In this document: piece after piece, positions 58-6,190 of the stretch
Layout of the letters: each line of letters begins with the position of its first letter
How positions within the stretch are numbered: the first letter of the stretch is position 1
NCBI RefSeq assembly: GCF_000731795.2
Contig: NZ_JGVK01000001.1
Span: 1-64,000, forward strand
Length of the DNA stretch: 64,000 nucleotides
DNA from: Candidatus Photodesmus blepharonis
Lineage (GTDB): Bacteria > Pseudomonadota > Gammaproteobacteria > Enterobacterales > Vibrionaceae
Direction of reading: 5' to 3'
The notes under the pieces: model-generated
What the model saw: only the letters and a program-made list of their open reading frames with translations
What the model was told of the DNA's origin: nothing
The model's database searches: none
Made by a program: the position numbers and the translations under genes

Positions 58-855
58 TTATTCCTCTAATGAGATATTGTTGTAGTGAATGATATGCTTA
101 AGTATATTTTTGATGTTGCCTGAATTTGATCCAACTAAGTTGCCTGATTCTATATATTTAGTGCCTCCTGAAAAATCAGTCAAAATAGCTCCAGATTCTC
201 TTGCTATCAATTCGCCGGCAGCGATTTGCCAAAATTTTAAGCCTAGTTGAAAATACCCGTCAAAACGCCCAGCTGCAAGATAACACAGATCTAAAGCAGA
301 TGAACCAGTGCAACGTAAATCCGCGGAGTTTATCATTAAGGATGATATTGTTTTTATATATGATTCACAATATTTTTGTTTCTCAAATGAAAAACCGGTA
401 GCAATTATACTTCCTTTGATTTTTTTAAACTCTTTAACGCGAATACGTGTATTGTTTAATTGGGCGCCACAACCACGCTGGGCTGTGAATAGTTCGTTAC
501 GTATTGGATCATAAACACACGCAAACTCTGTTCTATCTTTTATGCGAACTGCTATGGATATAGAAAAATGTGGTAATTTTTTTTCAAAGTTTTTGCTTCC
601 ACTTATTGGAACAATAATCCAACACACATGCTTTTTTTTACCTTTAAGGAAACCACTTTCTTCACTAAAAATTGAGTGTTCAGGGTACGAATTTTTGATG
701 TTGTTTACAATGATCGCTTCTGCTTTTTTCTCAGAAATCAATTTTTTTATGTTTTTTTGAGTTAGCTCAATTCTTTCATGTTCTGATAATGAGTTAGCAA
801 TGTAATTACCTGCTTTTCGTGTAGCCCGTACTACAATGTTGAGTATTGGATGCAT
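58..855 (-). CDS. suhB: SuhB, inositol monophosphatase-family Nus factor with degraded active site
   Basis: The 265-residue protein aligns end to end with E. coli SuhB (267 aa): start MHPILNIVVRATRKAGN, GTEES-like SEESG at 64-68, YDPIRNELFTA near 114-124, and TGSSALDLCYLAAGR near 182-196. SuhB is a metal-dependent inositol-1-phosphatase that also acts as a Nus factor in rRNA transcription antitermination. The catalytic motif, usually W-x-x-D-P-x-D-G-T-x-N-F, reads WIIVPISGSKNF (79-90), so both aspartates are gone. The second metal motif WDxAAG reads WQIAAG (208-213). The NVD aspartate near residue 44 is also missing. Only the EE pair survives. The frame is open throughout, so this is a maintained protein without phosphatase chemistry, not a pseudogene. 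It diverges from iscR. Confidence 0.93.
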   Translation of the reverse strand: MHPILNIVVRATRKAGNYIANSLSEHERIELTQKNIKKLISEKKAEAIIVNNIKNSYPEHSIFSEESGFLKGKKKHVCWIIVPISGSKNFEKKLPHFSISIAVRIKDRTEFACVYDPIRNELFTAQRGCGAQLNNTRIRVKEFKKIKGSIIATGFSFEKQKYCESYIKTISSLMINSADLRCTGSSALDLCYLAAGRFDGYFQLGLKFWQIAAGELIARESGAILTDFSGGTKYIESGNLVGSNSGNIKNILKHIIHYNNISLEE

Positions 856-1191: not shown

Positions 1192-1665
1192 ATGAAACTT
1201 ACATCCAGGGAAAGGTATGCTGTAACGGCCATGTTAGATGTGGCTTTACATTCAGAAGAAGTTCCAGTTCCTTTAGCAGATATATCAATCCGTCAAGGCA
1301 TTTCTCTTTCTTACTTAGAGCAATTATTTCTAAGATTGCGTCAGGCGGGATTAGTTGTTAGTACTCGTGGACCTGCTGGAGGATATCAGCTAGGTGTTGA
1401 TGGACGTAAAATTGCAATTAGAAGCGTTCTTCTCGCAGTGGATGGATCTCTTGACGTAACGAAATGTAGCGGGAAAGGCGATTGTCAAAATGGTCTTCTT
1501 TGTTTAACGCATGTTTTCTGGTTAAATTTAAACTCACGTATAAATGGATTTTTAGACAGTATTACGATTGGTGAACTTATGACCAATAATGAAGTATTGA
1601 AGATTTCGGAACGTCAAAATGTCGATTTGATAGCCAATCGCAATTTTTCGGGCAGTAGTATATAG
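1192..1665 (+). CDS. iscR: IscR, Fe-S cluster-sensing transcriptional regulator
   Basis: A 157-residue Rrf2-family regulator that represses isc genes when loaded with a [2Fe-2S] cluster. The N-terminal winged helix ([17 protein letters not shown], then [19 protein letters not shown] and [10 protein letters not shown]) matches E. coli IscR. The cluster ligands Cys92, Cys98, Cys104 and His107 are all present in [17 protein letters not shown]. The C-terminal tail differs from E. coli and is about five residues shorter. It is the first gene of the isc operon and lies directly behind a near-perfect IscR site, so autoregulation is likely preserved. Confidence 0.97.
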
Positions 1666-4339: not shown

Positions 4340-6190
4340 GTGTTACTTAAAATTGAAGAACCAAATCAAAGTGGTATTTTACGTAGGCACAAGTTTGCTG
4401 CAGGAATTGATTTTGGCACAACAAATTCTTTGATTGCTTCTGTAAAGGAAGGTGAGGCTAGGGTTCTTTTGGATTCTGAAAACCGAGGTATCTTACCTTC
4501 AATAGTTAATTACGCTTCGGGAGAGTTGTTAGTTGGTCATAACGCAAAAGAAAGGGCTAAAATTGAATCTAAAAATACCATCTTTTCCATCAAGCGCTTG
4601 GTTGGGCGATCGTTTGATGATATTCAGAATTGTTATCCATTATTGCCTTATACTTTGAAAAAAGGTGAGAGTGGGTTGCCTATTTTAGAAACAAATCAGG
4701 GTGATAAAAGTCCAGTCGAGATCTCATCTGAAATTCTTAAAGTTCTTGGCAAGCGTGCTGAAGAGAGATTAGGTGGTGAGCTTTCTGGCGTTGTTATTAC
4801 TGTGCCAGCTTACTTTGATGATATTCAACGTATGTGTATAAAAAATGCTGCTAATTTAGCTGGTCTTCGTGTATTACGTTTGCTCAATGAACCAACTGCA
4901 GCTGCGCTTGCTTATGGTTTAGACTCAGGCCGAGAAGGTGTTATAGCTGTTTATGATCTCGGTGGTGGTACATTTGACATTTCTATTTTGCGTTTATCCA
5001 AAGGTGTTTTTGAAGTTTTAGCAACAATGGGTGATTCTGCTTTAGGTGGTGATGATTTTGACAACTTGGTTGCTGAATATTTTCAAGCTAAAGCAAATTT
5101 AAAAGGTAAACTATCCTCTGAACAAAAGCGTGAATTGCTTGATATTGCAATTGATGCAAAAACGCGTTTATCTTATGTTGATTTTGTTGAAGTATCGATT
5201 TTCGGGTGGATTGGAACTTTTACTTGCGAAGAATTTAATGCTCTCATTCAACCCCTTGTGAAAAAAACCTTAATTTTGTGTTCTAAAGCGTTGAAAGACG
5301 CAGAAGTGGATATCAGTAGAGTAATAGAAGTAGTTATGGTTGGGGGTTCGACTCGCATTCCATTAGTACTTCAAATGGTTGGTGATTTTTTAAATTGTGT
5401 CCCGTTGACTAGTATTAATCCTGATGAAACAGTAGCGATTGGTGCTGCGATTCAAGCTGATCTTTTAGTAGGTAATCGATCTGATTTAGAAGTGTTGTTA
5501 TTGGATGTCATTCCTCTATCTCTTGGCATTGAAACTGTAGGAGGTGTAGTTGAAAAAATTATTCCACGTAATACAATAGTTCCAGTTGCTCGAGCACAAG
5601 AGTTTACGACGTATAAAAACGCTCAAACAGCGATGACGATTCATGTCGTTCAAGGTGAGCGCGAAATGGCTGACGGTTGTCGTTCGTTAGCCAGATTTAC
5701 CTTAAAGAAGATTCCTTCTATGACGGCAGGTGCTGCGAAGATTCGAGTGATTTACCAAGTCGATGCTGATGGCCTGTTGTCTGTAACAGCTACGGAAAAA
5801 AGTAGTGGTGTAAAAGCTGATATTCAAGTTAAGCCATCTTATGGTCTGGGTTATACGGAAGCAATAAGTATGCTAAAAGATTCGGTAATTAACGCTAAAG
5901 AAGATGCGGATGCCCGTGCGTTTGCTGAACAAAGGGTAGCAGCTAGAGGTATTATTGAAGCCCTTGTTGCAGCAATGAAAGCTGATGCTGAAGTATTGTT
6001 ATCATCCGAAGAAAAGAAACACTTATCGTGTCAGATTCAAAAGTTAATCACGCTTTGTGATAATGGTAATGCTAGTGAAATTGAGAGAGGTATTAAGGAG
6101 TTAGATAAAGCAAGTCAAAAGTTTGCTTCAAGTCGTATAGAACAATCGATTCGATCAGTTCTTTTAGGTCATTCGATTGATGATATTTGA
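4340..6190 (+). CDS. hscA: HscA, Hsp70-class chaperone for Fe-S transfer
   Basis: A specialised DnaK paralogue of 616 residues, the E. coli HscA length. It binds the LPPVK motif of IscU and drives cluster release. The nucleotide domain shows [10 protein letters not shown] near residue 22, the phosphate 2 motif [11 protein letters not shown] and the adenosine motif [11 protein letters not shown]. The substrate domain begins after [17 protein letters not shown]. Translation starts at GTG 4340, giving MLLKIEEP, which aligns with the E. coli N-terminus; ATG is not available there. fdx follows after 9 bp. Confidence 0.97.

Follow-up and report, generated by a model that had tools for sequence, protein, structure and literature searches.

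Pseudophosphatases such as STYX have kept an enzyme fold for binding after the loss of their catalytic residues, and those of the STYX type are paralogues that exist beside active enzymes. The SuhB proteins considered here are unlike them in that the orthologue itself has lost the site, and has done so repeatedly. The SuhB protein of E. coli (structures 2qfl, 6ib8, and 6tqn) is both an inositol monophosphatase (IMPase) and a Nus factor, the Nus role being its studied cellular role (PMC4807359; PMC6614801). One of these two papers argues that phosphatase activity is not the primary function of SuhB (PMC4807359). According to the other, this activity is not needed to relieve the effects of suhB mutations in E. 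coli, SuhB variants that fail in RNAP binding also fail in complementation, and the affinity of E. coli SuhB for the AR2 of NusA, with a Kd of 94 nM, drops more than 1000-fold upon double mutation of K251 and L254 (PMC6614801). The roles that we assign to E67, D84, D87, D212, and E205 are based upon a paper on M. tuberculosis SuhB, which also states that mutations in the metal site cut the activity dramatically (PMC2080633). According to three further papers, suhB is listed among the ancestrally essential genes of Enterobacteriaceae, with an asterisk denoting that the threshold was missed in up to two strains (PMC11481867); it was dropped from a metabolic model of Buchnera as being unconnected to biomass (PMC2649895); and a table of Buchnera genes lists it in the row for Calaphidinae plus Phyllaphidinae, which is taken to mean loss (PMC11188193). 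Among the titles and abstract beginnings of the matches listed in the open-licence literature, no report describing loss of the SuhB active site was found.

The SuhB of Ca. Photodesmus blepharonis (the source genome, G000; 1,112,309 bases in 33 contigs) resembles that of E. coli over its whole length (about 50% identity), shares with it K251 and L254 and is predicted to have the same fold, but D44, D84, D87, T89, E205, D212, and R184 of the E. coli protein are replaced or lost in it. G050 (1.0 Mb) is the other reduced genome of our Vibrio genus sample, and both it and G000 are from luminous symbionts. Its SuhB is comparable to that of G000 in its reduced genome, in the change of R184 to Cys and in having a similar neighboring ORF, but it differs in that its catalytic motifs are intact. 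The SuhB proteins from 46 reduced Enterobacteriaceae genomes and those from V. harveyi, V. tapetis, V. anguillarum, Pseudoalteromonas, and Colwellia are also like that of G000, as they are of full length with one to five acids replaced. However, the 46 Enterobacteriaceae proteins differ from one another in which residues are replaced, and the marine species differ from G000 in that D212 is lost and the other ligands are kept, except in V. tapetis (E67R). Judging from these sequences, the site loss in G000 is not private to it, and the same enzyme site is gone in many lineages where the protein stays.

The suhB gene of Ca. Photodesmus blepharonis

The features that were identified in the window (i.e., the whole stretch of 64,000 nucleotides that was analyzed) are given below. 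Residue numbers are those of the G000 protein, and E. coli numbering was assigned through the SuhB of G050 (267 aa).

58–855, minus strand: suhB orthologue with its catalytic metal site lost; 265 aa, ATG start, open frame
730–735, minus strand: place in the NVD segment where two residues are missing (E. coli D44 region), at residues 41–42; from alignment
658–663, minus strand: retained EE pair, residues 65–66, equivalent to E. coli E67–E68; from sequence
595–612, minus strand: VPISGS replacing DPxDGT, residues 82–87 (D84V, D87S, T89S); from sequence
310–312, minus strand: Cys182 at the position of E. coli R184, where G050 likewise has Cys; from alignment
247–249, minus strand: Gln203 replacing the substrate-contact Glu, E. 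coli E205; from alignment
226–228, minus strand: Gln210 replacing the metal-ligand Asp of WDxAAG, E. coli D212; from sequence and alignment
100–111, minus strand: K249 to L252, retained; the stretch holds the counterparts of E. coli K251 and L254, for which the contact with NusA AR2 has been tested; from alignment
1192–1665, plus strand: neighbor of suhB, which we take to be IscR-like; a similar ORF lies beside suhB in G050 in the same divergent order

An earlier, sequence-only reading of this locus had described the frame as intact at family length, and this was confirmed for the ATG-initiated frame at 58–855. When the letters of the gene were shuffled, the frame was open in 0/2000 shuffles. 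The protein passed the gathering score of the Pfam family Inositol_P (172.7 bits with a cut-off of 27, residues 2–251). Its score with NCBIfam PRK10757 was 315.4, below the curated cut-off of 332 but far the best among seven families, a combination that is consistent with a diverged SuhB orthologue. It shows 56–63% identity to 24 Vibrio SuhB and 58% to that of G050. A suhB match was observed in 227/227 genomes of the genus, G000 included. A scan of GTDB genomes for close relatives with the G000 SuhB gave no match, and the sole match in a search of G000 for a back-up IMPase (up to E=10) was SuhB itself. Between suhB and the IscR-like gene (856–1191 of the window) there is no ORF of 80 aa or longer. 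In Colwellia marinimaniae (locus L165), suhB is adjoined by a divergent ORF (1043–1858) that by its look is presumably the RNA methyltransferase TrmJ.

The two motifs of an active IMPase, DPxDGT and WDxAAG, are absent from the G000 protein, in which they read VPISGS (D84V, L86I, D87S, T89S) and WQIAAG (D212Q). E205 is also changed (E205Q), D44 is lost, and E67 alone is left of E67, D84, D87, and D212, with E68 still present next to it. D44 is counted here among the catalytic acids as well. The sequence-only reading had placed VPISGS at residues 82–87 and had stated that the NVD aspartate is missing, both of which were borne out, the NVD segment being cut by a two-residue gap. It had further assigned the change in the WDxAAG aspartate to Gln209; the replacement by Gln is correct but its number is not, as Gln is residue 210 and residue 209 is Trp. 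Its statement that the EE pair is all that remains is accurate for the acids that it named, but K34, G88, G186, S187, and W211 are kept as well. Six separate in-frame changes of this kind are unlike the product of one assembly error. Neither D84 nor D87 varies among the other 112 SuhB sequences that were aligned, 107 of which are from large-genome Vibrio, and all catalytic motifs and ligands are intact in G050, which is likewise reduced; the ligand loss in G000 is therefore not a matter of chance. We infer from the residues replaced that phosphatase activity is probably absent from this protein.

SuhB active sites in reduced and large genomes

Of 394 genomes in an even sample of the order, 387 contained a suhB match. 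All five of the SuhB-bearing genomes of 1.2 Mb or less in this sample (G000, G267, G286, G371, and G519) have lost ligands. No suhB match was obtained in six genomes of 0.2–0.3 Mb and in one genome that is 51% complete, and G382 and G501 gave a weak match only. Outside the Enterobacteriaceae, G247 (1.7 Mb) lacks all five acids, and G363 (1.7 Mb) and G258 (1.9 Mb) are intact. A second sample, from the Enterobacteriaceae (the family of G519), comprised 149 genomes from 149 genera, one per genus. Based upon rounded sizes, 52 of these 149 genomes are of 1.8 Mb or less and 46 of the 52 contain a full-length SuhB; the other six showed either no match (G739, G756, G780, and G808) or only a weak one (G773 and G778). 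All 46 of these SuhB sequences were retrieved and aligned, and every one of them (46/46) is without at least one of D44, E67, D84, D87, and D212. If only the four ligands described in the M. tuberculosis protein are considered, at least one is lost in 45/46 and at least two in 43/46. The sequence-only reading had proposed an alignment with SuhB from Vibrio and related symbionts as a check, and its outcome is an intact site in G050 and site loss in all 46 SuhB sequences from reduced Enterobacteriaceae. The 46 proteins have 46 different ligand strings, and some of their losses may be shared from one older loss. Their frames are 249–277 aa long and all end at E. coli position 252 or later; a stop within the match, flagged in 4/46, is C-terminal (E. 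coli position 257–259). Among the family's genomes of 3.5 Mb or more, the 15 that were sampled (of 86) all have an intact SuhB site. Between 1.8 and 3.5 Mb, three of 11 genomes were sampled, of which G700 (2.0 Mb) is intact and the other two are not. In these two, G721 (2.4 Mb) and G748 (3.3 Mb), three ligands are lost though the genomes are not strongly reduced; they are perhaps from recently host-restricted bacteria.

The retention of individual residues in the 46 sequences was 0.15 for E67, 0.17 for D44 (which lies in the region that is aligned least securely), 0.20 for T89, 0.24 for both D84 and E205, 0.26 for D212, and 0.63 for D87. The alignment round DPxDGT is anchored by W81 and N91, each of which is present in 46/46. 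Compared with 89 other invariant sites, for which the median retention was 0.76, these seven catalytic positions were significantly less retained (Mann-Whitney P=0.0015). In a wider set of 99 other conserved sites the mean retention was 0.69, vs. 0.29 for the five ligands; none of the 46 sequences departs from this order, the ligands always being less kept than other conserved sites, and sets of five sites drawn at random reached the observed value with P=0.00016. For the paralogue CysQ, the catalytic motifs were intact in 21/21 Vibrio and also in G267 and G286, whose SuhB is dead, the restriction to these two reduced genomes being the weakest part of the control. The three CysQ that were scored, including both of those from reduced genomes, were all above the NCBIfam TIGR01331 cut-off. 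In the 1.1-Mb genome G267, two more partial IMPase-like matches (C8:29–427 and 5668–6096) were observed in addition to SuhB and CysQ.

Changes in the site were also found in large genomes. The 107 aligned SuhB from large-genome Vibrio are mostly the better-scoring matches and were not randomly drawn; one or more of the five catalytic acids are changed in 15/107, or in 7/107 if D44 is not considered. The changes in these 15 are D44A (7), D44N (1), E67R with D212S (2), D212N (2), and D212Q (3); the seven D44A sequences have Ala for the NVD Asp and their other ligands intact. Another 30 SuhB of the order showed D212E in three and were otherwise intact. A DNA pattern for GLxPW-nonAsp-xAAGE, run across the GTDB genomes, identified 66 stretches, 38 of them being SuhB, in which N, H, Q, S, or T occupies the position of the WDxAAG Asp. 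These 38 are from Pseudoalteromonas (22), Colwellia (6), Vibrio (6; harveyi, owensii, rotiferianus, anguillarum, ordalii, and tapetis) and one each from Thalassomonas, Thalassotalea, Pseudocolwellia, and uncultured Enterobacterales. With the codon left free, the pattern matched 95/108 genomes in the genus of G564, taken to be Pseudoalteromonas, and the Asp was absent in 27/95, as counted by reading the list. In Vibrio 156/226 genomes matched and at least nine were without the Asp, one of the nine being D212E. At least 12 switches between an intact and a changed site are required on a SuhB tree (FastTree, 188 distinct sequences) that leaves out the reduced and mid-size family genomes and in which losses are over-represented via the pattern scan.

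The sequence-only reading had tied the loss of the enzyme to a reduced genome. This part of it did not hold, since a ligand is changed also in large-genome Vibrio, Pseudoalteromonas, and Colwellia, and the idea that site loss needs genome reduction is ruled out by these marine losses. Genome reduction is also not always sufficient, as a full site is present in G050 (1.0 Mb), G363 (1.7 Mb), G258 (1.9 Mb), and G700 (2.0 Mb).

Constraint outside the active site and the rRNA-transcription partners

The D212-lost SuhB of large-genome marine lineages are under ordinary purifying selection. Based upon pairs with dS of 0.1–1.5, and with one short Pseudoalteromonas sequence dropped, the median pairwise dN/dS for D212-lost suhB was 0.050 in Pseudoalteromonas (n=21), 0.082 in Vibrio (n=6), and 0.104 in Colwellia (n=6), and that of the D44A Vibrio was 0.060 (n=7) vs. 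0.061 for Vibrio with an intact site (n=60). Between G000 and G050, suhB has a dN of 0.32 and a dS of 1.56, which is near saturation, and hence branch lengths and the less diverged dead SuhB of the marine genera were used. The suhB branch of G000 has a length of 0.354 vs. 0.301 for the catalytically intact G050. The resulting ratio, 1.18, is the second highest of 14 genes and falls within the range of the other 13 (0.39–1.42). The ratio of symbiont-to-free-living distance for suhB, 3.66, is the highest among the 14 genes. Of 155 positions with an identity of 98% or more across the 107 large-genome Vibrio, 40 are changed in G000 and 31 in G050. Outside the active site, the fraction of 99 conserved sites that is kept amounts to 0.77 in G000 and 0.80 in G050. 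Of the five ligand positions, G000 keeps one and G050 all five, and the lost constraint is thus mostly local.

Both G000 (494 aa) and G050 contain a full-length NusA with AR1 and AR2. An exact boxA is present in G000 in the spacer between a tRNA gene and 23S (contig C21), at the same place as the spacer boxA of a large-genome Vibrio; in G000 it is known from the spacer alone. In G050, three spacers carry a boxA with one mismatch at the corresponding place, and a leader contains AGCTCTTTAATA. A genome-wide count of boxA-like words was rejected as evidence; in G000 it gave 9 matches vs. 11 for a reversed control, and hence only position and exactness within the rRNA spacer are informative. No 16S rRNA match was found in the G000 assembly, in which 23S, 5S, and the spacer sit on a 3.6-kb contig, and this absence is probably due to unassembled rRNA repeats.

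The sequence-only reading had also pointed to the surface contacting NusA. The tested AR2 contacts K251 and L254 are kept in G000 SuhB as K249 and L252, and NusA AR2 and the spacer boxA persist; the residue next to these contacts, R248, is Gly in G000. In the 46 reduced-genome sequences, K251 and L254 are kept in 0.70 and 0.74, respectively, compared with a median of 0.49 for comparable sites, and their retention exceeds that of 69 and 78% of such sites; the AR2 contacts are only moderately better kept than comparable sites and are not outstanding. R184 is invariant in the 107 large-genome Vibrio, but it is Cys in both G000 and G050, in the latter beside an intact active site, and with a retention of 0.17 it ranks with the most poorly retained residues of the 46 sequences. 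Variants of R184 are reportedly among the SuhB variants studied in structural work on the E. coli protein, and the loss of this residue counts against a simple rRNA-role reading. K108 was dropped from the AR2 contacts that are considered as support, because PMC6614801 judges the second SuhB–AR2 contact mode, which includes K108, to be probably crystal packing. The predicted fold of G000 SuhB superimposes on the SuhB of the rrn complex 6tqn with a TM of 0.82; the model (mean pLDDT 74.7, with three segments below 50) is given little weight.

Explanations for the retention of SuhB

We consider it likely that G000 SuhB is a pseudo-phosphatase that selection keeps for a function other than catalysis, most likely that of a subunit in the rRNA transcription complex. 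This interpretation is based upon the observed loss of the site, the intact frame, ordinary constraint elsewhere, the presence of NusA AR2 and of a spacer boxA, and the recurrence of the loss in reduced genomes; the rRNA role would then be the function under selection. The phosphatase chemistry would have disappeared on the branch leading to G000, with purifying selection then retaining the protein for a non-catalytic task. It would bind NusA AR2 and boxA-bearing RNA in the rRNA transcription complex, help to recruit NusB/S10 and support the maturation of pre-rRNA. The natural separation of functions that the sequence-only reading had suggested is thus retained in part: disappearance of the site from a protein whose frame, fold and most other conserved residues persist is the signature of such a separation and recurs in 46/46, but the condition of a reduced genome has to be given up. 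Against this interpretation are the behavior of D87, for which loss in the 46 is not pronounced (0.63 retained), and the rank of suhB among the 14 genes, highest for the distance ratio and second highest for the branch ratio.

Alternatively, suhB could be decaying, with its frame not yet broken and with selection in a small population relaxed along its entire length. The 40/155 near-invariant Vibrio positions that are changed in G000 and the top distance ratio of suhB are in accordance with this, and relaxed purifying selection in Photodesmus has been published (PMC6020299). However, the catalytically intact SuhB of G050 is changed almost equally (31/155), the branch ratio of 1.18 lies inside the range of the 13 other genes, the ligands are less kept than other conserved sites in all 46 sequences, with nine residues kept in every one of them, and none of the 2000 shuffles of the gene's letters remained open. 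Decay of the gene appears improbable to us, and we would assign a similarly low likelihood to the proposal that SuhB is kept for a non-catalytic job besides rRNA transcription, such as another RNA or ribosome contact. This proposal is favored by the AR2 contacts not being outstandingly conserved in the 46, but both luminous symbionts still have NusA AR2 and boxA, and the Nus role is the studied cellular role of SuhB (PMC4807359; PMC6614801).

Even less probable, and in our view very unlikely, is that SuhB retains some catalysis with a changed metal or substrate. The equivalents of E67/E68, K34, G88, G186, S187, and W211 are present in G000, and in the marine species with large genomes D212 is often the one residue changed, in some cases to Glu. 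However, four of the acids and E205 are gone in G000, the metal-site mutants of M. tuberculosis SuhB are dramatically lower in activity (PMC2080633), and the replacements in the 46 vary from genome to genome, which is unlike adaptation to one new chemistry.

Returning to the reading of SuhB as a retained pseudo-phosphatase, we lean toward extending it to the gammaproteobacteria, to which the phosphatase of SuhB would be dispensable and by which it would have been repeatedly shed, occasionally in marine lineages with large genomes and almost always in those restricted to a host, the conserved and often essential function in the order being the rRNA-transcription role. The repeated disappearance of the metal site from a fold that persists provides evolutionary evidence that phosphatase activity is not the primary function of SuhB, and this evidence comes from organisms where, as far as our searches show, such a loss apparently had not been looked for. 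In many reduced genomes, these genes are probably misnamed as inositol monophosphatase. If this reading is correct, dozens of natural separation-of-function alleles become usable for mapping the non-catalytic surface of SuhB, and the positions kept in all 46 sequences become candidate parts of the surface required by the rRNA complex. Nine residues (L5, W81, N91, P97, F125, N136, L190, Y194, and E222) are present in 46/46 and are spread over the protein, M1 having been left off this list because the trimming of frames to Met favors it.
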